From the NCBI RefSeq assembly GCF_026011795.1, contig NZ_BRVS01000025.1, forward strand, positions 1 through 35,650: DNA of 35,650 bases. Reading direction: 5' to 3'. The notes below the pieces were generated by a model. That model ran no database searches, was not told where the DNA came from, and worked only from the letters and a program-made list of their open reading frames with translations. Every line of letters starts with the position of its first letter. Position 1 is the first letter of the stretch. The position numbers were made by a program, and so were the translations under genes. The DNA comes from Arthrobacter mangrovi (GTDB taxonomy: Bacteria > Actinomycetota > Actinomycetes > Actinomycetales > Micrococcaceae). Below are positions 4,433-19,477 of this stretch, one piece after another.

Positions 4433-5416
4433 ATGAAGAAACTGGCTGCGGCCTTGGCGATGACGGCGGCCCTGGCTTTGACGGCATGCGGCGGCGGGAG
4501 CCCCTCGGGCGGTGAGGAGACGGCTGCGTCCCCCGGGGCCAGTGGAAATCTCACGCCGGTCAGTGTCGGGGTCATTCCCATCGTGGATGTCGCACCGATC
4601 TACCTTGGCGTGCAGGAGGGCATCTTCGAAAAGCACGGGCTCGACGTCGAACTCACGCCGGCCCAGGGCGGCGCCGCCATCGTTCCGGCCATCACCAGTG
4701 GACAGATGGACTTCGGCTTCAGCAACGTCACCTCGCTGATCATCGCCCGGTCCAAGGGGCTGCCGCTGCAGATCCTCGCCAGCGGCTCCTCCTCCACAGG
4801 GGACCAGGATGCCGACTTCGCCGCCGTGATGGTCAAGCCGGATAGCGGTATCAAGGAGATCGCGGACCTGGCCGGCAAGAGCATCGCCGTCAACACGCTG
4901 AACAACATCTCGGACTCCACCATCAGCGCCGCGGTTGAAGAGGCCGGGGGAGACGCCTCCAGCATCGACTACGTCGAAATGCCCTTCCCGGACATGCGCG
5001 CCGCGCTGGAGAAGGACAACGTCGACGCTATCGCCGCCGTCGAACCCTTCGTCACGATGGCCAAGGCCGACGGCGCCACCCCGGTCTTCTCCAACTACGC
5101 CCACCCCGTGGACGACCTCACCGTCGCCGTGTACTTCACTTCGGACCAGATCGCCGAACAGAAGCCGGAGGAGACCCAGGCCTTCACCGCGGCCATGAAG
5201 GAATCGCAGGCCTTCGCGGATGCCAACCCGGACAAGGTCCGCGAGATCCTGCCCACGTACACGCAGCTCGATCCGGCTGTCATCGAACAGCTGACCCTGC
5301 CCAAGTTTGCGCAGGACGTCAATGCGGACTCTCTGAATACGATCGCCGACATCTCGCTGCAGGACAACCTGATCGAGGAGAAGCCCGACATGGAGGCCCT
5401 CCTGCCGCACCAGTAA
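4433..5416 (+). CDS. ABC transporter substrate-binding lipoprotein, NMT1/SsuA/TauA type
   Basis: A 327-residue extracytoplasmic binding lipoprotein. The signal peptide MKKLAAALAMTAALALTAC ends in a lipobox (LTAC), and a Gly/Ser-rich linker follows. The mature part shows the NMT1 layout: VGVIPIVDVAPIYLGVQEGIFEKHG, then GGAAIVPAITSGQMDFGFSNV, a pattern of proteins binding sulfonates, nitrate, thiamine precursors or aromatic acids. The ligand cannot be read. The ATG at 4433 follows GGGGTAGGA. No permease or ATPase gene follows, since two hairpins come straight after the stop. It is an orphan receptor that must share a transporter encoded elsewhere, or it has lost its partners. Confidence 0.85.
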   Translation: MKKLAAALAMTAALALTACGGGSPSGGEETAASPGASGNLTPVSVGVIPIVDVAPIYLGVQEGIFEKHGLDVELTPAQGGAAIVPAITSGQMDFGFSNVTSLIIARSKGLPLQILASGSSSTGDQDADFAAVMVKPDSGIKEIADLAGKSIAVNTLNNISDSTISAAVEEAGGDASSIDYVEMPFPDMRAALEKDNVDAIAAVEPFVTMAKADGATPVFSNYAHPVDDLTVAVYFTSDQIAEQKPEETQAFTAAMKESQAFADANPDKVREILPTYTQLDPAVIEQLTLPKFAQDVNADSLNTIADISLQDNLIEEKPDMEALLPHQ

Positions 5417-5544: not shown

Positions 5545-6972
5545 TCAGCCGGTGTAGCTCCCCCAGTTCCGCGCGTCCCACAGGCGGGCGGGCGTGCCGG
5601 TAGAGGACACCTTCGCGAACCGTTGCCCACCGAGCTCCAGCTCCGAACGCTCCGCCACGCCGTCGGCCACCTCGGCGAGGGCCTGCGGGGAAGTCGCGCC
5701 CCAGCGGCCGTCATCGATCCGATCGAAGAGAACCTGGAGGGAAGTGATCTCCTCGATCGGAGCGAACGTGCAGTGCCCATCGGAGGAGACGTAGAGCTCG
5801 CGCAGCAGTGGGGCGGAGCCGGTGGACCGCACAACGGAAGCGTAGGCCTCGTCGTCGGCAGTTGTGCCCGCGCCGTCGCCGCTGGTATGGAGGGACAGCA
5901 CGGGAACGGAGAGCTCGCCTGTGAAAGTCGCGGTCCGCTCGACGAAGCCGACGGCTTCCGGGTTTGCCGCAAGGCGCTCCGCCGACGCCAGTGTCTGGAG
6001 ATCTTCGGCGAGCGAAAGCCCGGCGGCCTGATAGGCGGCGGTGATCTCGGACCAGCGTCCCGACCCCTTCAACGACTTTTCGTAGTCGACGCCGGTGTTC
6101 CACGAGAACGCTCCGCCCACCGTCTGCTCGTAGCCAGCCCGGACGTGGGAGCCCATGGCAAACGGCAAGTGGTCGAGGTACCTGTCAGTGCGTGCCTCGA
6201 GATCGCCGGCCGGGATCTCCTGGTCGGACACTGGGTCCACAGCCGGGATCTTGCTGAGCGCCGCGGCGAGGACAGCGCGGGCCCGTCCCTCCGGAGTCGA
6301 AGCCGCCTTGGCAACCAGATCGTTCATCGCACGCAGCTCGGCAGCCCTGTCGGTGATGTTCTGGATCTGCATTGGCGATTCCGGATCAACCAGCTCGCGC
6401 AGGGCAAAAGCCGTGTCCAGCTTATAGTTCCACGTACTCACCGCACCGGCGCCGCCTCCGCACATCGGCAACGCACCGTCCAGCCAGGCCGGCTGGGAGT
6501 CTGCGATGATGCGCGTGGCCAGCCCGCCCTGGGACCGGCCGCTGACCACGACCGTCTCCGGGCTGCCGGCGACGCTGGTGAAAGTCTCCACCGCGGCGCC
6601 GGCGTTGCGGCGGTCCTGCACCAGGTCCCAGCCATCGCTAAGGTCATAGCCGATTACGCCATAACCCTGCTCGATGAGCCACTGCGCCGTTGTGCCGCTG
6701 AGGTTCGGGCGGCCCGGCATGACGACGATGGCACCGTTCCACTCGGCAGGCTTGACCAGCGAGTACGGTGCGTCCCCTTCGAGGGCGCCCTGCCCCACCA
6801 CTTCCAGGCCGGGGGCGAAGTCCCCGGAGAAGGACGATCCGGCAGAGGCTGGCCTCTCCGAAGCGGCCGCGGGAGAAACCGCGCCCGGTCCTGCCAGGGC
6901 CAGCAGCGCCACCAAGGGCAGGGCTTTCGCTGCGGTGGATTTCCTCGAGGTGGTCTGGGGCGTCTTGGTCAT
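5545..6972 (-). CDS. Secreted alpha/beta hydrolase A, esterase-like
   Basis: A 475-residue exported serine hydrolase. A Sec-type signal (about 1-38: basic start, LPLVALLALAGPGAV, then AAAS) precedes the alpha/beta core. The likely triad is Ser147 in the nucleophile elbow SGRSQGG, Asp366 in LHTSGD and His400 in SDGHC. The only two cysteines are Cys171 (ALPMCGGG) and Cys401, next to the catalytic histidine, and probably form a disulfide. The order matches the upstream hydrolase B, so the two are paralogues. The start overlaps the stop of hydrolase B (ATGA), and GGGAGG lies 7-8 nt upstream, so translation is probably coupled. The substrate is unknown; an ester, perhaps aromatic as in tannase/feruloyl esterases, is inference from export and the neighbouring oxygenase, importer and CoA-ligase genes. 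Confidence 0.78.
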   Translation of the reverse strand: MTKTPQTTSRKSTAAKALPLVALLALAGPGAVSPAAASERPASAGSSFSGDFAPGLEVVGQGALEGDAPYSLVKPAEWNGAIVVMPGRPNLSGTTAQWLIEQGYGVIGYDLSDGWDLVQDRRNAGAAVETFTSVAGSPETVVVSGRSQGGLATRIIADSQPAWLDGALPMCGGGAGAVSTWNYKLDTAFALRELVDPESPMQIQNITDRAAELRAMNDLVAKAASTPEGRARAVLAAALSKIPAVDPVSDQEIPAGDLEARTDRYLDHLPFAMGSHVRAGYEQTVGGAFSWNTGVDYEKSLKGSGRWSEITAAYQAAGLSLAEDLQTLASAERLAANPEAVGFVERTATFTGELSVPVLSLHTSGDGAGTTADDEAYASVVRSTGSAPLLRELYVSSDGHCTFAPIEEITSLQVLFDRIDDGRWGATSPQALAEVADGVAERSELELGGQRFAKVSSTGTPARLWDARNWGSYTG

Positions 6973-8408
6973 TGTCCTACCTCCCGCTCGGGACGGAGCA
7001 TGCTGTTCGGTTTGTAGTGGGTGAAGGAGCCGCCGCGGTCGAGGCCGTCTTCGGCGGCGATGCGGTCGGCGAGGGCGTTGAGCGAGGCCGGGTGCGCCAG
7101 ACTGGCCCAGCTGCCCTCTTCGAGGCGCTGCTGGAGCGCGGTGACCAGGGCCGCAATCTCGGCATCCGCATAATCGCAGTGCCCGGGACGGTCAACGAAT
7201 GCCTGCCGAAGCAGGCCATTGCCGCCGTTCGAGCGCACACGCTCCGAGTAGGTTCCGGCCTGCGCGACAGTCGGTGCCGTGTCGCCGGTTTCGTGGAGAG
7301 TCAAAACGGGGCCGTCGATGTCTCCCGTGGGAGTGGCGTTGGCCTGCATGTAGGCAACGGCGTCCGGATCGGCGGTGATCCGCTCTGCCGAGGCCAGAAC
7401 GCCCAGGTCGTCGGCCAGGGACAGACCGGCGTCGGAATACAGCGCGCGGACCAGCGTGGCGTTGCCGGAATGGACCAGCGACTGGGCGTAGTCTACGCCT
7501 GTGTTCCAGGAGAAATTGCCCCCGGCGCGCGCCTCGAGCGGCTGCCGGGGCGAGATCACGCCGAACATGAAGGCGGCATGGAGTTGTTCCTGCTGGGCGG
7601 CGAAGTCGCGTGCGGAAGGCTCGGGCTGCGAGGACTGGGTCCACGTGGGAATCTGGGCCACGCTGGCGGCGAGGGCGATGCGCGCCCTGCCTTCCGGGGT
7701 GGACTGGGCTTCTTCGAGCACCGCCCGGAAGGCGGCCTGCCGGGCCGCCTCGTTTTGCACGTTGACCAGCTCCAGCCGCTCGTCCCCGGGGGCCAGGAGC
7801 ATCTTCAGGACAAAGGAGCCGTCCAGATTGCCGTTGAGCATGGGGAGGGAACCGGCAACTGACCCGCAGAGGGGCAGCGCGGCGTCGAAGGAATCGGGGT
7901 GGGCTTCCATGATGGCCGCGGAGGTGAGCCCGCCCATGGACGAGCCCCACGCGATAACTTCCTCCGGTTCCCCGAGCTCCGCGCGGACGACAGCCAGGAC
8001 GTCGGGCTGGTTGGCAATGAGATCCTTGACTGCCCAGCCGCCAGTGGAGGAGGTGGTGCCGGCTATCGCGTAGCCCTTGCCGAGCAGCCATTCATTGACC
8101 GCGGCAGACGGACCGGCGGAGGCCGCTGCCGCGCCACTGCCGCCGTACCCGGGGTTCCACACCAGCAGAGTGCCGTTCCACCGTGCGGGCTCGAAAAGGA
8201 CGTAGCTGCCGCCGCCGGGCAGGCTGCCCCGCTTCTCGGCGGTGACGCCGCCGGCAGCGGTAGCCGGTGCTGCGTATGCCGGCAAAGGAGCCGCCGGGGA
8301 CGCTGCTGTAATCAGCGGTGCCAGCGCGAGGCTTACCGTGGCCGCTGCGGCCAGTATTCTGCGCCTGGGCCGTGGTGCGCGTCGACAGCGGGAAATCTGT
8401 TGGGGCAT
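6969..8408 (-). CDS. Secreted alpha/beta hydrolase B, paralogue of A
   Basis: A 479-residue exported hydrolase. A long twin-Arg-like basic start (RRAPRPRRR) is followed by a hydrophobic stretch and an AYA cleavage region near residue 47. The core has the nucleophile Ser157 in WGSSMGG, an Asp in LTLHETGD and a His in DRPGHCDY. Its mature part has only two cysteines, in ALPLCGS and just after the catalytic His, at the same places as in hydrolase A. Shared landmarks with A include FSWNTGVDY, SLADDL/SLAEDL, LASAER and STPEGRAR, which shows tandem duplication followed by divergence. The start at 8408 has AGGAAGG at a good distance. The PaaX gene ends 111 bp upstream on the same strand; whether both hydrolases share that operon or have their own promoter in this gap cannot be decided. 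Confidence 0.78.
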   Translation of the reverse strand: MPQQISRCRRAPRPRRRILAAAATVSLALAPLITAASPAAPLPAYAAPATAAGGVTAEKRGSLPGGGSYVLFEPARWNGTLLVWNPGYGGSGAAAASAGPSAAVNEWLLGKGYAIAGTTSSTGGWAVKDLIANQPDVLAVVRAELGEPEEVIAWGSSMGGLTSAAIMEAHPDSFDAALPLCGSVAGSLPMLNGNLDGSFVLKMLLAPGDERLELVNVQNEAARQAAFRAVLEEAQSTPEGRARIALAASVAQIPTWTQSSQPEPSARDFAAQQEQLHAAFMFGVISPRQPLEARAGGNFSWNTGVDYAQSLVHSGNATLVRALYSDAGLSLADDLGVLASAERITADPDAVAYMQANATPTGDIDGPVLTLHETGDTAPTVAQAGTYSERVRSNGGNGLLRQAFVDRPGHCDYADAEIAALVTALQQRLEEGSWASLAHPASLNALADRIAAEDGLDRGGSFTHYKPNSMLRPEREVGQ

Positions 8409-8519
8409 GGTGGATCCTTCCTGCGGTGCAACTCAGCAGTGAGCCGCCGCATGGCGAAAGACATGAAAGGTCGGAGTGCCGCTGCGCCTCAGTGGCCGCC
8501 GGCCCGCGAAGGGGCCGGT

Positions 8520-9476
8520 TTACGAAAGCAGGGAGGCTGAGGCGGCGAAAGTGTGGTGCGTGACCAGCTGGGCCAGAGACTCGTCGTGTGGTCGGAGGAT
8601 CCGGCGAAAGGCGGCCTCGGCGGTGGGCCCGAGGCTGTCATAGAGGGCGCAGCAGGCTGCGACGGCGCGGTGCATGGGGTAGTCCTCACCGAGCAGCTCG
8701 TGCGGCAGGCGGGGGTCGAGCCTGCGCAGGGTGCGCCAATCCGCCATGATCGAGGTGCGCAGGCGGAGGGCCGCGTCCCCGGGACGTGCTCCGGCCTCGG
8801 GGGAGACCTCCAGGGCTGCTTCCACTCCGTCCGGAAGACGCGACGCGACAGGCTCCCAGCGGTCCAGGAACTCGCGGTAGCGGTCGGCCAGCTCCGCAAG
8901 GCCGAAGGCAGCAGCCACGGCCCCGCGCCCCGTGCCCTGCGGCAGGCGGGCACCGGTGAAGACCGTGATCTGTTCCGGATCCAGTTCTCCGCCCAGACCG
9001 GCCACGATCCCGTCCACTACGGCCAGCTGGTCGCCGGGACGGATCCACACGGCGTCGTACAGGTTCCCGAAGCGCAGCTGGCGCAGCTGTTCCCGCAAGG
9101 CCCGCCGCGTGACCTTGGCGTCCTCGGGAAGCGAATAGCCCACCAGTGTCCAGCTGCCGTCCCATTCCTGCGGCAAATGGCTCATGAAAAGCGAGCGCAC
9201 ATGCGCGTTGATCCGCTCCTGGCTCATCGGCGGCACCGCATAGGCAGTCTGGCGTCCCGCTTTCTGCCCTACCAGGAAGCCGCGCTGCGCCAGGCGCTGG
9301 ATCGCCGCCCGCGCTCCGGTCGGCGTCACGTCGAACACCTGGAGCAGCTCGACCAGCGCGGCCGACGGTATCGGCTCGTTGCGCGTGTGCCAATAGTCCC
9401 CCAACAGGACGGTCAGCAGCTGCTGGGGGCGTGCTCCCTGCTGGAAGCGCGGCAGGCTCGGGGCTGGAGTGGACAT
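8520..9476 (-). CDS. PaaX-family transcriptional repressor
   Basis: A 318-residue regulator with the PaaX layout: an N-terminal winged helix (about 15-85, QQLLTVLLGDYW ... TPTGARAAIQRLAQRGFL), a central domain (SWTLVGYSLPEDAKVTRRALREQL, with LRFGNLYDAVWIRP) and the C-terminal PaaX domain (LDPRLPHELLGEDYP near 265-280). PaaX in E. coli represses phenylacetate genes and is released by phenylacetyl-CoA, so the ligand here is probably an acyl- or aryl-CoA. No paa catabolic gene is present; the nearest CoA-forming enzyme is the divergent ligase at 14621. The start has no clear ribosome site and lies 12 nt after the P450 stop, which suggests translational coupling within the operon. Confidence 0.85.
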   Translation of the reverse strand: MSTPAPSLPRFQQGARPQQLLTVLLGDYWHTRNEPIPSAALVELLQVFDVTPTGARAAIQRLAQRGFLVGQKAGRQTAYAVPPMSQERINAHVRSLFMSHLPQEWDGSWTLVGYSLPEDAKVTRRALREQLRQLRFGNLYDAVWIRPGDQLAVVDGIVAGLGGELDPEQITVFTGARLPQGTGRGAVAAAFGLAELADRYREFLDRWEPVASRLPDGVEAALEVSPEAGARPGDAALRLRTSIMADWRTLRRLDPRLPHELLGEDYPMHRAVAACCALYDSLGPTAEAAFRRILRPHDESLAQLVTHHTFAASASLLS

Positions 9477-9488
9477 GGCTTGATTCTG

Positions 9489-10778
9489 TCATTGCCCGGT
9501 CCGGGCCGCGGAGCGGACGCCTGTCGCGGTGGCTCTTCCGCTCAGGTTCAGCGGCACTGCACGCGGTCCGTACTCCAGCCAGTTCATCATGACGACTTCC
9601 CCCGTGAGCCCGAAGGAATCGGTGCGGGCAAGGAGCACTTCCAGCGCGATCCGCAGCTCGAGGCGGCCCATCGCGGCGGCGGGGCATTTGTGGGAACCCC
9701 GTCCGAAGGCCAGATGGGAGTTGCCCTGGCGGCGCAGCACGAACTCATCCGGGTCGGAGAAGACAGCTTCATCCCGGTTTCCCGAGGGAAAAATGAGGGC
9801 GATCGGTTCGCCTGCGCGCACCATCCGCCCATGCACTTCCGTATCGCGCCGGGCCGTGCGGGCGAAGACCCGGTAGGGGGCATGCAGGCGCAGGAACTCC
9901 TCGATCGCGGCCGGCAGGTCCTCGGGATGGTCCCGCAGGTGCTGCTGCAGCGTCTGGTCCTGGGCCAGATGCACGAGACAGCTGCCCAGCACGGCCTGCG
10001 GGGCGCCCATCCCAGCGACGATCATCTGCCGGATGGTGGCGATAGCGGTCTTCTCCGTGATGTGGTTGTCCGGGCTTAGGACGGCCTGATGGAGGCTGGA
10101 CACAAGGTCCCGGCCGGCGTCCGCGTCCGCGGCCAGGCGGTCCCGGTAGACCTCCTCGGCAATGCGGTACAGCTCGGCACTGCATTCGCCGATGACCTCG
10201 TTGTCCATGTCCTGGATCGCGAAGCCATAGCGCACGCCGATCTCCCGGATATGCCGGGTCAAGGAGGGCGGGACCCCTAGGAACGCTGCGAAGCAGTCCA
10301 TGACGAACGGTGCGGCGAAATCCCGGATCCCGTCCACGTCGTCGGACCTGAGCATGGCGGTGACCAGTTCCTGCGCACTGGCACGGAAGGCGTCCTCGTG
10401 TTCACGGACCACGGCACGGCGAAGCACCGGATCGATGGCCACCCGGTAGGCCGTGTGCTCGGGCGGATCGAAGTGCAGCGGTGGTCGGCGCGAGGAGCGC
10501 GGCACATGCGGGACGACGTTCTGCACCGATGTAATGAACAAGTCGTCGTCCTGGGCGATCCGGGCGATGTCCGCGTAGGTTGTGGCAGCCCAGAAACCGC
10601 CGAAGTCCTTGCTCCACGGGAAGGCGTTCTCCTGCCGCAGCCGCGCGTAGTCACGGTGCGCGCTGCCGAAGGTTTCATCCAGCGCCGGTGACCATTCGGA
10701 GCCGCGGCCGTGCTGCGGCTGGGTGTCCGCAATCTGTTCCTGCACTCCCGTGCTGGAGCCCATAGGGCGGTGGTCCAT
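9489..10778 (-). CDS. Cytochrome P450 with atypical I-helix
   Basis: A soluble bacterial P450 of 429 residues. The heme loop is LAFGRGSHKCPAAAMG with thiolate Cys365, where Pro and Ala replace the common x-G after the cysteine. The K-helix ExxR is Glu294-Arg297 (EEFLR), and the C-helix motif DPPEHTAYR is present at about 104-112. The I-helix reads IVAGMGAPQAV (253-263), lacking the usual acid-alcohol pair that supports O2 activation. From memory, the guaiacol demethylase GcoA also has a non-standard I-helix, so an O-demethylase or peroxide-using enzyme is possible. No ferredoxin or reductase gene is near. The gene starts one base after the stop of the permease gene, embedding it in the importer operon. 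An alternative start is Met6. Confidence 0.9.
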   Translation of the reverse strand: MDHRPMGSSTGVQEQIADTQPQHGRGSEWSPALDETFGSAHRDYARLRQENAFPWSKDFGGFWAATTYADIARIAQDDDLFITSVQNVVPHVPRSSRRPPLHFDPPEHTAYRVAIDPVLRRAVVREHEDAFRASAQELVTAMLRSDDVDGIRDFAAPFVMDCFAAFLGVPPSLTRHIREIGVRYGFAIQDMDNEVIGECSAELYRIAEEVYRDRLAADADAGRDLVSSLHQAVLSPDNHITEKTAIATIRQMIVAGMGAPQAVLGSCLVHLAQDQTLQQHLRDHPEDLPAAIEEFLRLHAPYRVFARTARRDTEVHGRMVRAGEPIALIFPSGNRDEAVFSDPDEFVLRRQGNSHLAFGRGSHKCPAAAMGRLELRIALEVLLARTDSFGLTGEVVMMNWLEYGPRAVPLNLSGRATATGVRSAARTGQ

Positions 10779-10779
10779 G

Positions 10780-12438
10780 TCAGATCACCTTCCTGCGCGC
10801 CCAGCGGGCGACGGATTCGAGGGCTACGACCACCACGATCAGCCCGATCAGGATTCCGGCGGTCTGCTGGTAGTGGAGCGTCGCCACCGACTCGTCCAGC
10901 AGGAATCCGATTCCACCAGCGCCCACAATGCCCAGGACCGCGGATTCGCGCAGCGCCAGATCGGAGGTGAAGAGGCTGTTTCCGATGAAGCTCGGCACGA
11001 ACTGCGGCCACACTCCGCTGACGAAGACCTGGAGCCGGTTGGCCCCGGTGGCCTCCAGCGCACGGAGGGGTGCGGGGTCGACGTTCTGCAGGGAATCGGT
11101 GAAGAATTTGGACGCCAGCGCGGTGCAGGAGAGGGACAGTGCGAGGAAGCCTGCGAAGGGTCCCAGGCCCAGTGCGGCAACGAAGACGAGGGCGTAGATG
11201 ATGTCGGGGATTCCGCGCAGGACGACGACAATGCCGCGCAGGCCGACGGCGAGCGGTTCGAATCGAACGAGGTGCCCGGTGGATAGCACTGCGATAACCA
11301 GCCCTGCGGCCACGCCGAAGGAAGTGGCGGTGAGGGCCATGATGACGCTCTCGAAGATCCCGAGCGCGACGTCGGCGGTGAACACCGGCGGCACGAAGCC
11401 CGAGAGCAGTGCCAGTGCGTTGTCCCACGCCTGGCCGAGCCGTGCGGGGTTGAGGGCGAGCTGGCCCAGGGAGTAGAGGAAAAGCGCGACGGCGGCCACG
11501 GCGCCTGCGGTCCTTGTGATCCGGGCGCGGTCCCAGCCAGGGCTGGCGGGCTGACGGCCGGCCCGGAACAGCTGCGACTGCGTATGCTCACCGGCATGCT
11601 CGGCGACGGCGCGCTGCACCAAGTAGGAGACCAGTTCCAGGACCAGGAGCATGGCCACGATCACGGCGATGATTCCTGCCGCACGCTGATAGTTCAACGA
11701 GCCGATCGCCGTCTGGAGCGCGACGCCGATGCCGCCCGCACCCACGAGGCCCAGCACCGCGGAGGCCCGGATGTTGATATCCAGCCTGTACAGCACCAGC
11801 GACGCCAGCGCCGGCAGGGCGCGCGTCAGCGTCGTCGAAACGAAGTTCTGCGTCCGGGAGGCGCCGACGGCGGCAATCGCCTCGCGCGGAGCGGGGTCCT
11901 GCTCCTCGAAGACATCGGCCATCATCTTGCCGATCATGCCGACAGAGTGGAACGCGATGGCGAGGCCGCCCGCGAGCGGGCCCAGTCCGAAGATGCGGAC
12001 GAACAGGATGGCGAAAATGAGCGAGGGAACGGCCCTGGTCACGATGATGATCGTGCGGGCGAGCCACTGGATCGCCCGCGGTCCGGTGTAACGGCGTGAT
12101 GCTGCCGCGGCGAGGAAAACCGAGGCGAGGGTAGCCAAACCCGTGCCGGCAATGGCGATCCACAATGTCTCCAGGGCGAGCGCCAGCAGATCCGGGAGAG
12201 GCCCCGTGGTGGGCGGCACCATGCGTTCGAGGAGCCGCGCGATGTCGCCGAAGCCGGCAGCCAGCGCCTCCGGCCGGATGTCGATCCACCACGTGCCAAA
12301 GGCCGTGACCGCCAAATAGGCCAGCGGAATGCCGAGGGTGGCGGCCGAGGCGCGCGGCCACCTGGCGACGGGCGCCGGCATGGGCGAAGGACGCGTGCCC
12401 TCCCGGGCGGAGCGCCGGTCCTGCAAGGTGCTGTTCAT
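10780..12438 (-). CDS. phnE: Fused PhnE-PhnE-type ABC transporter permease
   Basis: A 552-residue inner-membrane permease made of two homologous PhnE-like halves in one chain (about 35-275 and 310-552). Each half has a binding-protein-dependent-permease loop. In half one, GLGPLAGGLAIAFHSVGMIGKMMADVFEEQDPA precedes AIAAVGASRTQ. In half two, GLGPFAGFLALSLSCTALASKFFTDSLQNVDPA precedes ALEATGANRLQ. Both end with SAVLG(L/I)VGAGGIG. PhnCDE systems often use two separate PhnE proteins, so this is the fused form of the heterodimer. The ATG at 12438 overlaps the phnC stop (ATGA). The substrate may be a phosphonate by family, but no phosphonate enzyme is encoded nearby. Confidence 0.9.
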   Translation of the reverse strand: MNSTLQDRRSAREGTRPSPMPAPVARWPRASAATLGIPLAYLAVTAFGTWWIDIRPEALAAGFGDIARLLERMVPPTTGPLPDLLALALETLWIAIAGTGLATLASVFLAAAASRRYTGPRAIQWLARTIIIVTRAVPSLIFAILFVRIFGLGPLAGGLAIAFHSVGMIGKMMADVFEEQDPAPREAIAAVGASRTQNFVSTTLTRALPALASLVLYRLDINIRASAVLGLVGAGGIGVALQTAIGSLNYQRAAGIIAVIVAMLLVLELVSYLVQRAVAEHAGEHTQSQLFRAGRQPASPGWDRARITRTAGAVAAVALFLYSLGQLALNPARLGQAWDNALALLSGFVPPVFTADVALGIFESVIMALTATSFGVAAGLVIAVLSTGHLVRFEPLAVGLRGIVVVLRGIPDIIYALVFVAALGLGPFAGFLALSLSCTALASKFFTDSLQNVDPAPLRALEATGANRLQVFVSGVWPQFVPSFIGNSLFTSDLALRESAVLGIVGAGGIGFLLDESVATLHYQQTAGILIGLIVVVVALESVARWARRKVI

Positions 12439-13274
12439 GACCGGTCGTCCTTCGCCTGCTGGTAGATGGCCCGGATGGCCTCCTCCGATGCCTCGGCGGT
12501 GGGGGTGTCCATGATGAGCGAACCGCCGCGGACGGCGACCACGCGGTCGGAGATCTGCAGGGCCAGGTCCACTTGGTGCAGGGAACAAACCACGGTGAAG
12601 CCGTCCTCGGCGCTGAGCTTCTTCAGGGTCCTCAGGACGGACAGGCTCGCGCTGGGGTCCAGGGAAGCAACAGGTTCGTCCGCCAGCACGATCTCGGCCT
12701 CCTGCATGAGGGTCCGTGCGATGGCTACGCGCTGCTGCTGGCCGCCGGAGAGTGTGTCGCAGCGCTGGAAGCGTTCGTCGAGGAGGCCGACGCGCTCCAA
12801 ATTAGCCACCGCTCTTTCCCGGAGCGCGATCGGGTAGGTGGAGATGCCATAGCGCGGCAGCTTCAGCGAGCCGAGCGCACCCATGAGCACGTTCTCGAGC
12901 GCGCTGAGACGTCCGACGAGGCCAAACTGCTGGAAGACAAAGCCGACCCGGGTCCGCAGCAGCTGCAGGTCTTTTCGGCTGCACATGGCAGGGTTGACGC
13001 CCAGAACGGAGACAGAGCCCTGGGTGGGGCGGTGGCTGCCGTTGATGAGGCGCAGCAGCGTGGATTTTCCAGCTCCCGAGGGGCCCACGAGGGCTACGAA
13101 CTGGCCCGGACGGACCTCCATGTCGACGTCCCGGAGCACATGCTTCCCGCTGAAGCTCATGCCTAGTCCGTTCAGGACGACGCTGGGCGGCGCTGTTTCG
13201 GCCATGCCGGTACTGGGTGCGGTGGCCATGGGACGCGGCTCCGGGACTTGTCGGCGGCGGGTGGTGGCGGTCAT
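12435..13274 (-). CDS. phnC: PhnC-type ABC transporter ATP-binding protein
   Basis: A 279-residue ATPase subunit of the importer. Walker A is GPSGAGKST (64-72), the Q-loop is FVFQQFG (112-118), the signature is LSGGQQQR (175-182), Walker B is IVLADEP (195-201) and the H-loop is CSLHQ. The PhnC-like features are LLRLINGSHRPTQGSV and an N-terminal stretch of about 30 residues rich in Arg, Pro and Thr before the domain. The ATG at 13274 has AAGGAG 7 nt upstream; Met16 and Met24 are possible later starts that would remove the tail. It lies 18 nt behind phnD and overlaps phnE by four bases. Confidence 0.9.
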   Translation of the reverse strand: MTATTRRRQVPEPRPMATAPSTGMAETAPPSVVLNGLGMSFSGKHVLRDVDMEVRPGQFVALVGPSGAGKSTLLRLINGSHRPTQGSVSVLGVNPAMCSRKDLQLLRTRVGFVFQQFGLVGRLSALENVLMGALGSLKLPRYGISTYPIALRERAVANLERVGLLDERFQRCDTLSGGQQQRVAIARTLMQEAEIVLADEPVASLDPSASLSVLRTLKKLSAEDGFTVVCSLHQVDLALQISDRVVAVRGGSLIMDTPTAEASEEAIRAIYQQAKDDRS

Positions 13275-13292
13275 GGTGCGGCTCCTTGGGTC

Positions 13293-14285
13293 TTACTCGC
13301 TGCGGCAGACTTCGGACTGCGTGGTTTCACAGATTTCGCGGATCGACTCGAAATCCCCGTCCGCGGCGGGCTCGAACGCGAAGGCTCCGGTGCCGCCCCA
13401 CTCGCAGGCCATCTCCCCGACGTACTCGTCACCCCACGCTTCCGGCGCCTCCCGCTGGTTGTCCGGGCAGAGGCCCGCTGCGGCCCCGGTGACAGCGTTG
13501 TACTTGAACACGGCGTCGGTGATCTTCGTGCGCAGTTCCTCCGGCAGCCAATTGCCCACCACCAGGGGTGTCCCGGGGATGTCCGGTGACGTCCATACGG
13601 TCTCGACGTCGCCGTCTTTGATGATGCCGCGGGCCGGCAGCAGGTCGGTTATGAACGTTCCTGCCACGAAGGCGACATCGCAGTCGCCCGCAAGCATCTG
13701 GGTCACGGCCACGTCGTGGGAACCGGCGAAGATGGGGTTAATGTCCTTTTCGGGATCGATCCCGGCCTCGATCAGGCCCGCCGCGGCCGCCAGGTAGCCG
13801 GTGCTGGAAGCCGGATCGGTGAAGCAGACGTCCTTGCCTTTCACGTCCGTCAGCTCGGCGATATCGGATCCGGCGGCAACGACGCCGAGGGACTGGACCG
13901 CTCCTGAGCCGGATTCCGGTGTCCGCTGGTCCATGGCCACCGGGGTGATGTCCGCGACGTCCTTGGCCAGGTAGTAGGAGAAGGCGCCATAGGTGGCGAC
14001 GTCGACGCGTTCGGCCACCTGGGCCTCGATGACGCCCGCGTTGCTGCTGACCGCTTCGATGCTGGTCGGCAGGCCTGTTTCCTTTTCGATGGCAGCGACG
14101 ATCGGCTTAAAGCTGTTTTCCAGTTCCTTGCTGTCATCCGTGGGAACGACGGCGAAGACCAGGGAATCCGGCGCCTGGCCTTCCGCGTTCGCCGCGTCGG
14201 TGCGGGCGTTGGGGCTGGCGCCACAGGCGGTGAGCAGGAGGCCAGCGGCAGCCAGCGTTGTAACTGCTTTGAAGGTCTTGTGCAT
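13293..14285 (-). CDS. phnD: PhnD-type substrate-binding lipoprotein
   Basis: A 330-residue lipoprotein and first gene of the operon. Its signal peptide ends in LLLTAC (Cys near residue 21). The mature protein has the PhnD pattern: VVPTDDSKELENSFKPIVAAIEKETG, then VDVATYGAFSYYLA, CFTDPASSTGYL and a GSHD-AVTQMLAGDCDVAFV segment. In PhnD/PtxB proteins the STSG loop binds the phosphonate or phosphite; here it reads SSTG. Ligand preference cannot be settled from this. The ATG at 14285 was preferred because it gives a normal signal peptide and has AGGAAGAG upstream; the longer frame adds 12 polar residues. Four cysteines late in the mature sequence, including MACEWGG and REICETTQSEVC, suggest disulfides. 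Confidence 0.88.
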   Translation of the reverse strand: MHKTFKAVTTLAAAGLLLTACGASPNARTDAANAEGQAPDSLVFAVVPTDDSKELENSFKPIVAAIEKETGLPTSIEAVSSNAGVIEAQVAERVDVATYGAFSYYLAKDVADITPVAMDQRTPESGSGAVQSLGVVAAGSDIAELTDVKGKDVCFTDPASSTGYLAAAAGLIEAGIDPEKDINPIFAGSHDVAVTQMLAGDCDVAFVAGTFITDLLPARGIIKDGDVETVWTSPDIPGTPLVVGNWLPEELRTKITDAVFKYNAVTGAAAGLCPDNQREAPEAWGDEYVGEMACEWGGTGAFAFEPAADGDFESIREICETTQSEVCRSE

Positions 14286-14620
14286 GGTGGTCTCTTCCTG
14301 TGTCTTCCCGGCGTTCCACACCGGGAATTATTAGCGTCACTTAGCTGATCGAAGGACCAGCTAAGTGTGGCCTATTGATCCACGCTGATCGGAGTGTCCG
14401 TGATGTGGTGCGAGACACAGTGCATCACCATCGATTGAAATTGTCAACGGTCTATCGGGCCCGGCCCGCTATTCAGCGTTTTCACAACTATTGACTTATT
14501 CAATCAATACTTCTTACCGTATGGGTAGGAACATGTGACGGGACTCACCCGCCCGATCGGGTGGGCGGACTTGGTCCGAAAGTCCGTCGTCGGAACGCAC
14601 AGCGAAGGGTACGTGTAACG
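14286..14620. promoter_or_regulatory. Divergent phnD / CoA-ligase control region
   Basis: These 335 bases contain no gene. They hold a perfect 10-bp inverted repeat CACTTAGCTG (14338-14347) and CAGCTAAGTG (14358-14367) with a 10-nt spacer, about 55-80 nt upstream of the phnD start. The 8-mer GCTGATCG occurs at 14344-14351 and again exactly 40 bp away at 14384-14391. A weaker GTGATG/CATCAC repeat lies at 14400-14428. An unusually AT-rich patch runs from about 14430 to 14520. The inverted repeat is the best candidate operator for the PaaX-type repressor encoded in the operon. Confidence 0.5.
14491..14520 (+). promoter_or_regulatory. Putative promoter of the CoA-ligase gene
   Basis: TTGACT (14491-14496), 18 nt, TACCGT (14515-14520), about 100 nt before the ATG at 14621. 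A short inverted repeat ATTGA/TCAAT (14490-14508) covers the -35 box. The assignment rests on consensus matching only. Confidence 0.4.
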
Positions 14621-16171
14621 ATGCACAACCAAGGGGTTGGAACGTGGATTCACCGCCGGCGGCGCAAGTTCGCCGATAAGGTGGCGCTCGTCAGCAGCGG
14701 GGCCGAGCTAAGCTATGCGGACTTCGCCAGCCGCGTGGACCGCCTGGCTAATGCTTTCGCGGACCGCGGCGTGGCCAAGGGCGACCGGGTCGCCTACCTG
14801 GGCGAGAACCACGCAGCCTTCCTGGAGACCTTTTTTGCCTGCGGCACGCTGGGTGCCGTCTTCGTTCCGCTGAACACCCGGTTGGCGCCGCCCGAGATCC
14901 AGTTCGCGCTGGAGAATTCGGGCAGCCGGATCCTGGTCAACGCGCGCAGCCTGGACGGGCTGGCGGTCGGCGGGGTGAGGGATACCCGGGTCGGGCGCCG
15001 GATGGTCGTGGAAGACGTCCCGGCGCAGGGCGCCGGGGAGGAAGTGCCCGGGATCGCCGTCGAACTTTTTGAAGATGTCATCGCCTCCGGAGGCGACACG
15101 CACCTTGACCTTGAGGTGGCGCTCGATGATCCGGCCATGATCCTCTACACGTCCGGGACCACGGGCCGCCCCAAGGGGGCCCTGCTGACCCACGCGAACA
15201 TGACGTGGAACAGCTTCAACGTGCTGGTGGACTTTGATCTGTCCAGCAGGGACGTGTCGCTGATGATTGCGCCGATGTTCCATGTGGCGTCGCTGGGCAT
15301 GGGAGTGCTGCCGTCGCTGCTCAAGGGCGCCACCGTCATCCTGGAGCCGCGCTTCGATCCGGGGCGGACGCTGCAGCTGGTGGAGCGGTACAAGGTGACC
15401 ACCCTGAGCGGCGTGCCGACGACGTTCCAGCTGATCTGCGAGCATCCGGCGTGGAGCATTACGGACGTCAGCTCGCTCAACAAGCTGACCTGCGGCGGTT
15501 CCGCGGTTCCGATGCGCGTGCTGGAGGCCTACGAGGCACGCGGCTTGTCCTTCACCAACGGGTACGGAATGACCGAGACCGCGCCGGGCGCCACCACGCT
15601 CGCGGCGGATAAGTCGCGGGAGAAGGCGGGCTCCGCCGGCCTGCCGCACTTCTTCACCGACGTCCGGATCATGGACCCGCTGGGCGGGCCGGCCGGTCCG
15701 GGCGAGGTGGGCGAGATCCAGATCCAGGGCCCCAATGTCATCAAGGAATACTGGCAGCGCCCCGATGCCACGGCGGACAGCTATGCCGACGGCGACTGGT
15801 TCCGGTCCGGGGACATGGGGTATGTCGACGACGAGGGGTACCTCTTCATCTCGGACCGGCTGAAGGACATGATCATCTCCGGCGGGGAGAACATCTATCC
15901 GGCCGAGGTCGAGCAGGTCATCGTGGAGCTCGAGGCGGTGAGCAGCGTCGCCGTGATCGGTGTTCCGGACGAGAAGTGGGGAGAGGTCCCGCGGGCCATC
16001 GTGACCGTCCGGGACGGCTTCCAGCTCACGGGCGACGACGTCGTCAACCACCTCTCGGGGCGGGTGGCGCGGTACAAGATTCCCAAGAGCGTGGTCATCG
16101 TCGATGACCTGCCGCGCACGGCGAGCGGCAAGATCCGCAAGGCGGACCTGCGGAAGCAGTACTCGGGCTAG
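14621..16171 (+). CDS. ANL-superfamily acyl/aryl-CoA synthetase
   Basis: A 516-residue AMP-forming ligase that activates a carboxylic acid to its CoA thioester. Seen: the P-loop YTSGTTGRPKG (176-186), the aromatic/AMP motif GYGMTETAPG (314-323), the hinge region FISDRLKDMIISGGENIYP (409-427) and the C-terminal PRTASGKIRK with catalytic Lys504. The whole frame resembles medium/long-chain fatty-acid and aromatic-acid ligases; the acid cannot be named. The ATG at 14621 is where homology begins (VGTWIHRRRRKFADKVAL), with GAAGGG 11 nt upstream. It is divergent from the phnD operon, and its product would be the kind of compound a PaaX repressor detects. Cinnamate-, phenylacetate- or fatty-acid-CoA ligase are all possible. 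Confidence 0.87.
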   Translation: MHNQGVGTWIHRRRRKFADKVALVSSGAELSYADFASRVDRLANAFADRGVAKGDRVAYLGENHAAFLETFFACGTLGAVFVPLNTRLAPPEIQFALENSGSRILVNARSLDGLAVGGVRDTRVGRRMVVEDVPAQGAGEEVPGIAVELFEDVIASGGDTHLDLEVALDDPAMILYTSGTTGRPKGALLTHANMTWNSFNVLVDFDLSSRDVSLMIAPMFHVASLGMGVLPSLLKGATVILEPRFDPGRTLQLVERYKVTTLSGVPTTFQLICEHPAWSITDVSSLNKLTCGGSAVPMRVLEAYEARGLSFTNGYGMTETAPGATTLAADKSREKAGSAGLPHFFTDVRIMDPLGGPAGPGEVGEIQIQGPNVIKEYWQRPDATADSYADGDWFRSGDMGYVDDEGYLFISDRLKDMIISGGENIYPAEVEQVIVELEAVSSVAVIGVPDEKWGEVPRAIVTVRDGFQLTGDDVVNHLSGRVARYKIPKSVVIVDDLPRTASGKIRKADLRKQYSG

Positions 16172-16572
16172 GGTGCCGCCTGCGTAGCGTCAGGGCGGCC
16201 GGATTCGAAGAGCTCGACCAGGTTTCCGGCCGGGTCCTCCAGCAGGATCTGCCGGCCGCCGATTCCGGAGACGATCTCGTTGCGGAAGCTGGCGCCCTGG
16301 CCGCGCAGTCGGTTCACCTCCGCGGCCAGGTCCCCGACTTCGAACTGTATGCGGTTCCAGCCGCCGGGCTCCGGGCGGCGGCCGTCGGGCATCGGCTGCG
16401 AAGCGCCTCCCGGGCCCGTCGGAGTGTTGAGCAGCAGGCGCAGGCTGCCGCGGGTGAGCATGGCAAATCCGCCGCCGGGCTGCATTCGCAGGTCGAAGCC
16501 GAGCAGGCCGGTATAGAACCGGACGGCGGCGTCGATGTCGTCGACGATGTAGCGGACGCTGACGGTATCCAT
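16168..16572 (-). CDS. VOC-family (glyoxalase/dioxygenase-like) protein
   Basis: A 134-residue protein with the paired beta-alpha-beta-beta-beta modules of the vicinal-oxygen-chelate fold: VRYIVDDIDAAVRFYTGLLGFDL (about 6-28), then a second half GGWNRIQFEVGDLAAEVNRLRGQGA and IGGRQILLEDPAGNLVELFES. The late DPAGN-VELFE motif holds the usual metal-ligand glutamate. The first-half metal ligand is not obvious, so it may bind rather than convert its ligand. The ATG at 16572 has GGAGGA just upstream. Its stop overlaps the CoA-ligase stop on the other strand. Function unknown. Confidence 0.8.
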   Translation of the reverse strand: MDTVSVRYIVDDIDAAVRFYTGLLGFDLRMQPGGGFAMLTRGSLRLLLNTPTGPGGASQPMPDGRRPEPGGWNRIQFEVGDLAAEVNRLRGQGASFRNEIVSGIGGRQILLEDPAGNLVELFESGRPDATQAAP

Positions 16573-16642: not shown

Positions 16643-17230
16643 TCAGCCGCCGGGGTAGAGCTCGTCGATCAGGGCGAGGCCCTGCTGCGCCCAGGCGATT
16701 TCCTGTTCCGCCCGGGAAATCAGGCCCTGGTAGGTGAACTTCTTGAACGCCGTTGTCTTTTCCCGGTCCGACGTCGGAAGGCTGGCCAGCCGTCTGGCCA
16801 GCATCGGGCTGGAGCCCTCTTCGATTTCCCGGACCTTGTCCCGCCACTGCTCCAGCTGGGCCTCGTGGTGCCGGATGTGTGCCCGCATTTGCTCGCGCGC
16901 GGCCTCCGGCTTGGCCCACTCCAGGTAGGCCGCTTTGAGGTGGGCCGGGTCGCGCTCGCGGGAGTATTCGAGGGTGCTGTTCATCCAGTCCCGGAAGGCC
17001 TCGGTTCCGGCGCGCGTGATGTGGTACTGCCGCTTCTTCCCCCGCTGGCCCCAGGCGACCTCCTCGCCCTCGAGCAGCCCGTCCTTCTCCATCCGCCGCA
17101 GCTCGGGGTAGATCTGCGAGTCCGGCGCGTGCCAGACGTGGCCCACGGAGGATTCGAATTCCTTGTAGAGGTCATAGCCGGTCATGGGCTCGACGCTCAG
17201 CAGCGCCAGCAGGGCGTATCGCAGGCTCAC
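16643..17230 (-). CDS. PadR-family regulator, probable repressor of the van operon
   Basis: A 195-residue PadR-type regulator with winged helix RYALLALLSVEPMTGYDLYKEFESSVGHVWHAPDSQIYPELRRMEKDGLLEGE (about 4-57). It continues with a basic wing (RGKKRQYHITRAG) and a C-terminal helical domain (Vir_C-like) for dimerisation. PadR proteins sense phenolic acids, and the C. glutamicum VanR regulator of vanABK is also PadR-like. Divergence from a vanA homologue across a 114-bp gap supports the same role. The start is GTG at 17230 with AAGGAGG 10 nt upstream; the open frame runs far upstream as an artefact. Two palindromes in the gap are likely targets. Confidence 0.85.
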   Translation of the reverse strand: MSLRYALLALLSVEPMTGYDLYKEFESSVGHVWHAPDSQIYPELRRMEKDGLLEGEEVAWGQRGKKRQYHITRAGTEAFRDWMNSTLEYSRERDPAHLKAAYLEWAKPEAAREQMRAHIRHHEAQLEQWRDKVREIEEGSSPMLARRLASLPTSDREKTTAFKKFTYQGLISRAEQEIAWAQQGLALIDELYPGG

Positions 17231-17257
17231 GGGCTTTCGGCCTCCTTCTGTCGGGTG

Positions 17258-17286: not shown

Positions 17287-17299
17287 GGTGACCCAGAGC

Positions 17300-17344: not shown

Positions 17345-18439
17345 GTGACCGCTGTCCAGTCCCAGAGCTCGACGACCAATAAGGTGCTCGGACACCCCCT
17401 GAATGCCTGGTACGTGGCGGCGTGGGACCACGAAGTCACGCGCGCTCCGATGTCCCGCCGGATCGCCAACCGTCCGGTGGCGCTCTACCGGACCGAGGAC
17501 GGCAAGGCCGTGGCGCTCGCCGACGCGTGCTGGCACCGCCTGGCCCCGTTGTCGATGGGCAAGACCGTCGGCAAGGACGGGATCCAGTGTCCGTACCACG
17601 GCATCGTCTACAACTCCGCGGGCCGCTGCATGTCGATGCCGGCGCAGGAGACGATCAACCCGAGCGCGACCGTCCCGTCTTTTCCCGTCGTCGAACGTTA
17701 CCGCTATGTGTGGGTCTGGCTCGGTGATCCGACCAAGGCGGACCCCGAGCTGGTGCCGGACATGCACCAGATGTCGTCCGAGGAGTGGGCCGGGGACGGC
17801 GAGACCATCCACGCCCCGTGCAACTACCAGCTGGTGCTGGACAACCTGATGGACCTCACACACGAGGAGTTCGTGCACTCGTCCTCGATCGGCCAGGAGG
17901 AGCTCAGCGAGTCCGACTTCGTCGTCTCGCACGACGGCAACACCGTCACGGTTTCGCGGTGGATGCTGGACATCGATGCGCCGCCGTTCTGGCTCAAGAA
18001 CATGCGGGACAAGTTCCCCGGCTTCGAGGGCAAGGTGGACCGCTGGCAGATCATCACCTTCCAGGCGCCCTCCACCATCTGCATCGACGTCGGGGTGGCG
18101 GCCGCCGGCACGGGCGCGCCCGAGGGCGACCGCAGCCAGGGCGTCAACGGCTTCGTCATGAACACGATCACCCCGGAAACCGACCGGTCCTGCCACTATT
18201 TCTGGGCGTTCATGCGCAACTACCGGCTGGAGAGCCAGCTCATCACGACCCAGCTGCGCAATGGCGTGCACGGCGTGTTCGGCGAAGACGAGGAGATGCT
18301 CAAGGCGCAGCAGGAGGCCATCGACGCCAACCCGGACTACGAGTTCTACAACCTCAACATCGACGCCGGCGGCATGTGGGTGCGGCGGCTGATCGAGCGG
18401 ATGCTCGACGCCGAGGGCCGCCTGGTCCCGACCGCCTGA
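17345..18439 (+). CDS. vanA: Rieske oxygenase, vanillate O-demethylase large subunit (VanA-like)
   Basis: A 364-residue terminal oxygenase of the VanA branch; with VanB it removes the methyl group of vanillate as formaldehyde to give protocatechuate. Rieske ligands are Cys62 and His64 (ACWHR) and Cys82 and His85 (CPYHG). The catalytic iron site is DNLMDLTHEEFVH with bridging Asp170 and ligands His173 and His178. The length suits VanA, which is shorter than BenA-type subunits. The start is GTG at 17345 after GAAAGGA. vanB follows 30 bp downstream and then an aromatic-acid carrier, forming a complete uptake and demethylation operon. Relatives act on other methoxybenzoates, dicamba or toluenesulfonate, so the exact substrate is inferred. 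Confidence 0.86.
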   Translation: MTAVQSQSSTTNKVLGHPLNAWYVAAWDHEVTRAPMSRRIANRPVALYRTEDGKAVALADACWHRLAPLSMGKTVGKDGIQCPYHGIVYNSAGRCMSMPAQETINPSATVPSFPVVERYRYVWVWLGDPTKADPELVPDMHQMSSEEWAGDGETIHAPCNYQLVLDNLMDLTHEEFVHSSSIGQEELSESDFVVSHDGNTVTVSRWMLDIDAPPFWLKNMRDKFPGFEGKVDRWQIITFQAPSTICIDVGVAAAGTGAPEGDRSQGVNGFVMNTITPETDRSCHYFWAFMRNYRLESQLITTQLRNGVHGVFGEDEEMLKAQQEAIDANPDYEFYNLNIDAGGMWVRRLIERMLDAEGRLVPTA

Positions 18440-18469
18440 CCCGGCCAATCGAGAGACAGGCAGAGAACA

Positions 18470-19477
18470 ATGGCAGCAACGAATACCGAAGTCTGGCAGC
18501 GGGCCACCGTCGTCGAAATCCACACCGTCGCGACGGACATCCGGCGCATTGTGCTGGAACCCGCCCTGCCCAAGGCGGCGGAACCGGGATCGCATATCGA
18601 TGTGAAGGTCAGCATCGGCGGAGAGGAGCAGAAGCGTTCCTATTCCGTGGTGGAGTCCGACGACGCCGGCCGGCTGGTGATCAGCGTGATGCGGGCTCCG
18701 CAGTCCCGCGGCGGCTCGGTCTTTATGCACGGGCTGGAGACCGGGCAGCAGCTGGAGATCACGCAGCCGCTGCAGAACTTCCCGCTGCGGGTGGGCGCCG
18801 AGCGCTACATCCTGCTCGCCGGGGGCATCGGCATCACGGCCATCGCCAACATGGCGGCCGTCCTGCAGCGGCTCAAGGCCAGCTACACGCTGGTGTATGC
18901 CGGGCGCAGCCGCACCGCGATGGCATACCTGGCCGAGCTGCAGGAGCGGCACGGGGAGAACCTGGTGGTGCATGTCGACGACGAGGGCACCTCGCTGAAG
19001 GTGGACGAACTCGTTGCCGGGGCGGACCTCGACACGGAGCTCTACATGTGCGGGCCGATCCGGCTGATGGACGCAGTCCGCCGGGCCTGGTCCGAGCGCG
19101 AGCTCGACTCCCCGAACCTGCGCTACGAGACGTTCGGCAACAGCGGCTGGTACGACCCGGAGGAGTTCATCGTCAAGGTGCCCCGGCTTGGCATCGAGGC
19201 CAAGGTCGGGCAGGGCCGCTCCATGCTGGAGGCCCTGGAAGACGCCGGCGCGGACATGATGTTCGACTGCCGCAAGGGTGAATGCGGCCTCTGCGAGGTG
19301 CGGGTCCTGGCGCTCGACGGCGGCATCGACCACCGCGACGTGTTCTACAGCGAGCGCCAGCAGAAGGCCACGGAGAAAATGTGCTGCTGCGTTTCCCGCG
19401 GCGTCACCTCGAAAACCGGCGCCAAGGCGGACGCCTCGCCCGCCGGACCCGCCGTCATCACTATCGACATATCCTGA
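18470..19477 (+). CDS. vanB: VanB-like oxygenase reductase (FMN, NAD, 2Fe-2S)
   Basis: A 335-residue class IA-type reductase that passes electrons from NAD(P)H to the VanA oxygenase. Domains in order: a flavin barrel with RSYSVV (56-61), a nucleotide domain with LLAGGIGITAI (115-125) and MCGP (193-196), and a plant-type ferredoxin domain at the C-terminus with Cys267, Cys272 and Cys275 (DCRKGECGLC) plus a cysteine in the unusual triple CCC at 305-307. One of the three must be the fourth ligand. The ATG at 18470 is preceded by a modest AGGCAGAG-like site. The spacing to vanA (30 bp) and to the carrier gene (34 bp) fits one transcript. Confidence 0.88.
   Translation: MAATNTEVWQRATVVEIHTVATDIRRIVLEPALPKAAEPGSHIDVKVSIGGEEQKRSYSVVESDDAGRLVISVMRAPQSRGGSVFMHGLETGQQLEITQPLQNFPLRVGAERYILLAGGIGITAIANMAAVLQRLKASYTLVYAGRSRTAMAYLAELQERHGENLVVHVDDEGTSLKVDELVAGADLDTELYMCGPIRLMDAVRRAWSERELDSPNLRYETFGNSGWYDPEEFIVKVPRLGIEAKVGQGRSMLEALEDAGADMMFDCRKGECGLCEVRVLALDGGIDHRDVFYSERQQKATEKMCCCVSRGVTSKTGAKADASPAGPAVITIDIS

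Follow-up and report, generated by a model that had tools for sequence, protein, structure and literature searches.

Arthrobacter mangrovi carries, on a contig of 35,650 bases that in its entirety forms the window analysed here (genome size 4.43 Mb), a compact unit in which a Phn-type ATP-binding cassette (ABC) importer is joined to a cytochrome P450, a PaaX-like transcription regulator and two serine hydrolases. The unit is real and conserved, and it is rare and scattered. With somewhat more confidence than doubt, we read it as a catabolic entry module that takes up a probably aromatic organic acid derived from an ester and oxidises it by means of the P450, with a PaaX-like repressor in control. 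As far as titles and the beginnings of abstracts disclose, no description of this gene set was found in the open-access literature.

All eight genes listed in a preliminary description of the contig were recovered in the places it had assigned to them, and the order and coupling it reported were borne out. On the minus strand, a PhnD-type substrate-binding lipoprotein (13293..14321; PF12974, 1.4e-51), whose likely start is the ATG at 14285 followed by an LTAC lipobox, both read from the sequence, is succeeded by a PhnC-type ATPase (12435..13274), a fused two-domain PhnE-type permease, hereafter PhnEE (10780..12438; two BPD_transp_1 domains), the P450 (9489..10778; PF00067, 1.3e-16), the PaaX-like regulator (8520..9476), and the hydrolases lip2 (6969..8408) and its paralogue lip1 (5545..6972; 36% identity in A6). 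The gaps through paaX are 18, -4, 1 and 12 nt, and those beyond it, to lip2 and then between lip2 and lip1, are 111 and -4 nt. Divergent from phnD on the plus strand lies an AMP-binding coenzyme A (CoA) ligase, with a longest frame of 14561-16171 and a likely ATG at 14621, the start being placed by comparison with locus L034.

The arrangement recurs well beyond this contig. In a sample of 395 genomes of the same family (window included, five candidates scored per genome), PhnD matches at E <= 1e-40 were found in 22 genomes at 24 places, of which 12 are close relatives with 60-100% identity and 12 are distant at 32-41%. Every one of the close loci keeps phnD-phnC-phnEE-P450-paaX, and at the distant places the P450, PaaX and the hydrolases were absent from all nine examined. 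A scan of 84,980 named species, made with the P450 alignment via the two exact peptides FAIQDMD and MMNWLEY and therefore favouring close relatives, returned 18 loci, 17 of them with importer, P450, PaaX-like gene and hydrolase; locus L071 (Actinomadura sp. NBRC 104425) holds a partial unit, with only the permease part, P450 and PaaX. Once five duplicates are dropped, 13 of these join the 12 family loci to give 25 distinct loci in soil actinobacteria of several families, namely Arthrobacter, Citricoccus, Microbacterium, Agromyces, Frigoribacterium, Nocardioides and Actinomadura. The order phnD-phnC-phnEE-P450 is kept in 24 of them, and paaX stands directly behind the P450 in 23 and elsewhere in the locus in L069 and L071. 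The hydrolase lip2 is present in 23 loci (missing from L040 and L071) and lip1 in 13; 12 loci have them downstream of paaX and 11 have them in divergent orientation to phnD, so that their position moves and the genes stay, and the flanks otherwise differ between loci and genera. Pairwise distances of PhnD, PhnC, PhnEE, P450, PaaX and lip2 correlate across 24 loci (r 0.72-0.93), a figure that also reflects shared descent. Because the order recurs in 24 of 25 loci and the gene distances correlate, the clustering goes beyond chance. The preliminary description had treated importer, P450, regulator and hydrolases as one unit and had proposed searching other genomes for phnCDE beside a P450 and PaaX; this search, with 24 and 23 of 25 loci, and the correlated distances uphold the unit. 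Its rarity is apparent from the family sample, where 12 of 395 genomes have the close PhnD, and from a sample of 396 genomes of the order, where the P450 was found in two, the own genome and G062 (up to four candidates scored per genome, which makes absence elsewhere weak evidence).

PhnCDE-type genes are usually annotated as phosphonate uptake. The PhnD-like protein exceeds the cut-off of the broader phosphate/phosphite/phosphonate binding-protein subfamily TIGR01098 (184.7 bits, cut-off 112.05) and falls short of the PhnD equivalog TIGR03431 (155.2 bits, cut-off 261.1). Its partners score a hair under the PhnC equivalog TIGR02315 (266.0 bits, cut-off 266.1) and well over the PhnE-type permease model TIGR01097 (430.2 bits, cut-off 216.7). 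Since all nine distant PhnD loci examined also match TIGR01097 over its length, the PhnE-PhnE fusion is nothing special. The AlphaFold model of the PhnD-like protein (pLDDT 79) has the expected fold, with PtxB as best match, followed by GpxB and PhnD, and PhnD-fold relatives with bound acetate or malonate (ArrX) are also among the matches. Among solved sequences, GpxB (9lf9, E 7.8e-20) comes nearest. In the parts of the source consulted, GpxB is described as a binder of glycerol phosphates, with phosphate contacts that include Tyr138, Ser168, Asn169, Ser170 and His199, and with alanine mutants, those of Tyr138 and His199 among them, whose affinity drops 10- to 100-fold (PMC12718374).

We transferred these residues to the PhnD-like protein via the printed alignment with 9lf9. 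Ser168-Asn169-Ser170 correspond to S172-S/T173-T174 and His199 to H202, both conserved in the PhnD-like homologues. Not all of the residues around the phosphorus head are kept, as Tyr138 falls on V142, which is Val in 11 and Ile in one of the 12 close homologues, and Tyr stands at this position in all seven distant PhnD homologues aligned. In a second set of 18 rows, which overlaps the first, the residue is Val in 17. An insertion peculiar to the close group precedes a Cys that the distant proteins also have, with W296 inside the insertion and W308 just behind it (P0007 numbering); W308 is lost in L069. Because the Ser/Thr residues and the His are kept, the Tyr is replaced and the fold is as expected, the phosphorus-specific site is, as judged by alignment, altered, and an anion is probably still bound. 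Compared with the PhnT-family ABC importers (PhnCDE, PtxABC, GpxB), the unit shares the fold, the D-C-E gene set, the Ser/Thr triplet and the His; it differs in the lost Tyr, in the extra loop with Trp, in the P450 and PaaX-like gene within the operon, and in its genomes, where the C-P lyase PhnJ (PF06007) had no match in any of the 12 module-bearing ones searched, the own genome included. This search was confined to PhnJ, other phosphonatases not being searched, and among its 14 control genomes only E. coli gave a match. To that extent, the earlier claim that no phosphonate-degrading gene is present stands, and the change in the pocket weakens the phosphonate reading, in line with the importer for an organic compound that the preliminary description had proposed. 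A second PhnD-like gene of the own genome (contig C42, 28% match), NMT1-type by eye and beside an ordinary P450, was considered and set aside.

The same residues bear on the alternative that the importer carries a genuine organophosphorus compound, a phosphonate or a phosphate ester, which the P450 and hydrolases modify or release. The conserved S172, S/T173, T174 and H202, the kinship with a glycerol-phosphate binder, the TIGR01098 score, and a weak likeness to PhnS of the alternative substrate-binding protein of locus L089 (see below) are all what this reading would predict, but the coordinating Tyr has given way to Val or Ile, the PhnD equivalog cut-off is missed, and PhnJ is found in none of the 12 genomes. 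The partners, moreover, are missing at all nine distant PhnD loci examined, and three of the four sphingomonad regions with annotation have TRAP genes near the P450, with no Phn importer seen. We consider an organophosphorus substrate unlikely, on this balance, though worth keeping in mind.

The P450 has its heme-thiolate Cys loop (FGRGSHKC) and ExxR motif (EEFLR), and lacks the acid-alcohol pair of the I-helix. Where CYP125 reads AGNETT, the protein of the window reads AGMGAPQ, and all Phn-type module loci read have AG(M/I)(G/A)AP. Among seven other P450s read in the own genome, (D/E)T stands in six and NEP in the seventh, which is GcoA-like. The missing pair is a genuine conserved feature of the unit's P450, and substrate-assisted or peroxide-dependent oxygen activation is one way in which such an enzyme may work. 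The operon itself holds no gene for a reductase or a ferredoxin. The aromatic O-demethylase P450s, GcoA and the protein of entry 8u09, which we take to be SyoA, likewise have an I-helix that departs from (D/E)T with a Pro next, reading QEP there and GAP here. In contrast, GcoA is far in sequence, its entries not being among the best 60 of 389 and the best 60 of 335 PDB matches, and the missing reductase gene is a further difference. Proton-delivery terms do not occur in the GcoA paper (PMC6021390). In the own genome, a second unusual P450 (L009, contig C1, 1216-2613) is GcoA/6g71-like and has NEP in its I-helix.

The two hydrolases have N-termini that look export-like by eye, so read, and both are probably exported. 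In lip2, the triad Ser157-Asp376-His410 is invariant in all 26 rows aligned, and the first fold matches of its model (pLDDT 86.7) are feruloyl esterases and MHETase, with low TM-scores of about 0.37. Neither protein reaches the Pfam tannase / feruloyl esterase family; lip1 has no Pfam family, and in lip2 only 62 residues match one, Peptidase_S9 (PF00326, 28.7 bits over 22.6). A lip2 homologue of 41% identity in L088 scores 21.4 bits, cut-off 22.4, for the 'tannase-like' DUF6351. Relative to the feruloyl esterase, tannase and MHETase group, the hydrolases share an alpha/beta-hydrolase with triad and the top fold matches, and differ in that the TM-score is low and the best sequence match to a solved structure has E 0.011. 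The label 'esterase' used earlier is consistent with the Ser-Asp-His triad and the folds, and is tempered by the same score. In M. yannicii DSM 23203 (L062, 4830-6083), the lip2 match contains one stop codon.

The regulator carries the N-terminal, middle and C-terminal PaaX domains (PF07848, PF20803, PF08223), all over cut-off, and scores 106.9 bits against the 264.55 of the PaaX equivalog TIGR02277. The earlier assignment as a PaaX repressor thus narrows to PaaX-like by domains, not PaaX proper, and because of this score phenylacetyl-CoA cannot be transferred as its ligand. The likeness to the PaaX of phenylacetate degradation ends with the three domains, as the equivalog score is far below cut-off and no paa genes lie in the operon. 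Upstream of phnD, two elements recur and keep register across loci. The 7-mer TTGACAA is found in 15 and GGCCACA in 14 of 24 phnD upstream regions; in 30 mononucleotide shuffles the commonest 7-mer peaked at 7-10, a control to be read with the proviso that related loci inflate the counts. In the window, the first belongs to the CCGTTGACAA element (14441..14450, minus strand), whose TTGACA is -35-like and may simply be a -35 box, and the CAATAGGCCACA element lies in the phnD promoter region at 14366..14377 (minus strand). The latter is not enriched, with one match in the window against 1.4 expected at two mismatches. Exact AATAGGCCACAS occurs five times in seven genomes, four of these at the phnD promoter, and its backward control occurs three times in the same genomes. 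A genome-wide regulon marked by the CAATAGGCCACA element was rejected, as AATAGGCCACAS occurs at most once per genome in the seven and is absent from two. Just upstream of phnD, at 14338-14367, lies an inverted repeat with 13-bp arms and one mismatch; as a common operator it was discarded, not being among the three best repeats of any other locus.

The divergent ligase (14621-16171) is closely related in sequence to a solved feruloyl-CoA synthetase, its best solved relatives being 8weu/8wev (E 4.9e-155). It belongs to the neighbourhood and not to the core, since a ligase lies near the module in only six of 25 loci, and as a core gene it was rejected; the preliminary description had counted it as a member of the unit, which is not upheld. 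That description went on to a full model, in which the PaaX effector is the CoA thioester that the ligase forms from the imported compound. The intergenic region that ligase and phnD share in the window, the feruloyl-CoA-synthetase-like character of the enzyme, and homologues of 55-56% identity (L065 compared with the window or L034) beside the module in four Microbacterium loci, three of them with a PadR homologue, would suit such a scheme. Against this, 19 of 25 loci have no ligase in the neighbourhood, and the window holds no further CAATAGGCCACA copy to serve the ligase on its own. The ligase is therefore not supported as an obligate source of the PaaX effector, and we regard the full model as distinctly unlikely.

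The wider surroundings are rich in aromatic catabolism, which lends partial support to the earlier interpretation. Besides the feruloyl-CoA-synthetase-like ligase, accessory genes in the window are a PadR-family regulator (16643..17230, minus strand; 57% to a Microbacterium PadR near the module) and a VanA/VanB-like Rieske oxygenase with its FAD/NAD/Fer2 reductase (17345..19477, plus strand; PF19112, 2.5e-50, and PF00355), which exceed no NCBIfam cut-off. At the left edge, a Rieske ring-hydroxylating oxygenase alpha subunit (3-947, minus strand) and a catechol 1,2-dioxygenase on the plus strand (TIGR02438, 491 bits over 404) lie within 3-2104. In Microbacterium L065, an amidohydrolase, an acyl-CoA dehydrogenase, MaoC, the 56% ligase, MTHFR, the 57% PadR and a LigM vanillate/3-O-methylgallate O-demethylase (878 bits over 580) are found near the module, a set that resembles p-hydroxycinnamate degradation in Rhodococcus jostii (PMC4737184) and the related piperine pathway (PMC12753220), as both are described in the portions of text consulted. 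The terms P450, PaaX, phosphonate and ABC transporter do not occur in the piperine text (PMC12753220). The cou p-hydroxycinnamate pathway of R. jostii RHA1 shares with the mechanism proposed for our unit the principle of CoA-thioester-responsive repression, and ligase and amidohydrolase adjoin the module in Microbacterium; it differs in that CouR is MarR-type, and the part of the text consulted, which was not searched for them, leaves P450, Phn-type importer and secreted hydrolases unmentioned (PMC4737184). As a specific partner, a CouO-type pathway was rejected, because the amidohydrolase is found in all 13 genomes searched, including two without the module (G001, G002), and the link is thus not specific.

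Several neighbouring genes were recorded in their own right. Beside lip1, at 2990-5416, lie an ABM-domain protein, a flavin-reductase-like stretch and an SsuA/NMT1-type binding protein (TIGR01728, 136 bits, cut-off 163.5), a type that is present near the module in eight of 25 loci, as judged by a clustering of neighbouring genes that covered frames of 100 aa and more. The stretch 20930-29416 holds a TctA-type tricarboxylate transporter and a GntR/FCD regulator on the minus strand, with aconitase and isocitrate/isopropylmalate dehydrogenase-family genes on the plus strand. In L042 and L043, an IclR regulator, an NMT1-type binding protein and a FAD-dependent hydroxylase-like gene accompany a Citricoccus-type module at about 13900-17300.

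Relatives that carry the same P450 family show that the importer can be exchanged. A sample of 394 genomes of the class (at most four candidates scored in each, so that here too absence says little) gave four matches, three of this P450 family, the own genome included. Genome G838 has a full Phn-type set, with a PhnD of 52% and two PaaX-like genes on the other arm. G1020 (L089) has, behind a PaaX-like gene, an ABC importer of a different kind and a tandem pair of P450s of this family (TGMVAP, VGMVAP). The match in G788 (31%) has an ordinary AGHDTS helix and falls outside the family. P450s of 41-42% identity also occur on seven sphingomonad plasmids (five Novosphingobium, two Croceicoccus), with the I-helix VGMVAPM in all five regions examined. 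A LacI-type regulator gene follows the P450 in all four annotated regions, and three of them also hold, at most 18 kb away, genes for a TRAP binding protein, for CoA transferases and for a member of the 2-hydroxyacyl-CoA dehydratase family. In the fourth, on pNL2 of N. aromaticivorans, where one side only is visible, the P450 adjoins a catechol/muconate operon. A lip2-like hydrolase is present in two of the five regions.

A further gene set follows the P450 across these relatives. Within about 9 kb upstream of the module, G838 carries an Amidohydro_2 gene truncated at the contig end and genes for a short-chain dehydrogenase, for two HGD-D proteins (2-hydroxyacyl-CoA-dehydratase-like), for a family III CoA transferase and for a PGA_cap protein. 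In G1020, a CoA transferase and an HGD-D pair adjoin PaaX, and Microbacterium salsuginis (L070) has matches to both HGD-D (52% and 34%), to the CoA transferase (68%) and to PGA_cap (52%) behind the module. The first HGD-D, the CoA transferase and PGA_cap also have counterparts in three sphingomonad loci, at 41-43%, 31-34% and 33-45%. As an obligate partner HGD-D was rejected; since only five of 12 module genomes have it and the own genome lacks it, the set is an optional partner, and that it recurs in two phyla makes it a strong lead. Separately, L105 (genome G145, contig C3) contains two sets of paired HGD-D proteins together with PaaX-looking proteins; each pair has a neighbour that by eye resembles a BcrA/HgdC-type activator, in an actinobacterium expected to be aerobic. 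One bolder proposal, speculative and in our view doubtful, is that this branch of the PhnT family has left phosphorus and imports phenylpropanoid-type carboxylates to a new P450 class that works without the acid-alcohol pair, substrate-assisted or peroxygenase-like. With its ties, in relatives from two phyla, to the CoA transferase III, HGD-D, PGA_cap and an exchangeable importer, this P450 would then open an aerobic route, so far undescribed, by which aryl-2-hydroxy-acid esters of plants, such as those of the rosmarinate type, are degraded.

The mechanism we propose for the catabolic entry module is as follows. Exported hydrolases would free a small organic acid, most likely aromatic or phenylpropanoid, from an ester outside the cell, and the PhnD-type lipoprotein, whose modified anion site probably no longer selects phosphorus, would pass it to the PhnC/PhnEE permease for transport that we take to be inward. 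The single P450 with its rebuilt I-helix would then oxidise the acid, by O-demethylation or hydroxylation, and the product would be passed on to ordinary aromatic CoA pathways, whose genes may lie nearby or elsewhere. The PaaX-like protein would keep the unit repressed, presumably through the conserved promoter, as long as no pathway intermediate, plausibly a CoA thioester, is present.

A number of observations weigh against this mechanism. For the importer, they are the retained Ser/Thr triplet and His, the glycerol-phosphate binder GpxB as nearest solved sequence, the His found at the V142 position in L069 (Actinomadura, 48%), where the alignment is uncertain, and the binding protein of G1020 (L089), whose best NCBIfam matches are 2-aminoethylphosphonate binders, far below threshold. 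For the enzymes and their control, they are the low TM-scores of lip2, the ligase missing near most loci, the CouO-like amidohydrolase of genomes without the module, the CAATAGGCCACA element that is not enriched in the window, and the three occurrences of the backward control of AATAGGCCACAS.

A protective or signalling role, in which a bioactive plant or microbial ester-derived molecule is imported and inactivated by the P450, would account for the single oxidising enzyme common to the loci, whose flanks differ and, in the stretches fetched, hold no downstream pathway common to most. High-affinity import with exported hydrolases would nevertheless fit feeding better, several genera have aromatic catabolic neighbours, and we hold such a role to be very unlikely. 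That unrelated genes came to lie together by chance or by position alone, for which the differing flanks might speak, is extremely improbable, as the same order recurs in many genera despite those flanks, with correlated distances and recurring promoter elements.

A catabolic entry module of this kind would matter in several respects. The branch is recognisable, by a PhnD in which Val replaces the Tyr and by the P450 and PaaX-like genes that come after it, and as it is probably not dedicated to phosphonate uptake, it would correct the annotation of such genes and add a new carrier for organic acids, be they aromatic or not. In its P450, nature would offer a conserved example of oxygen activation that dispenses with the usual proton-delivery pair. 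As the unit is compact and occurs in named Arthrobacter and Microbacterium strains, growth and binding tests would be straightforward.

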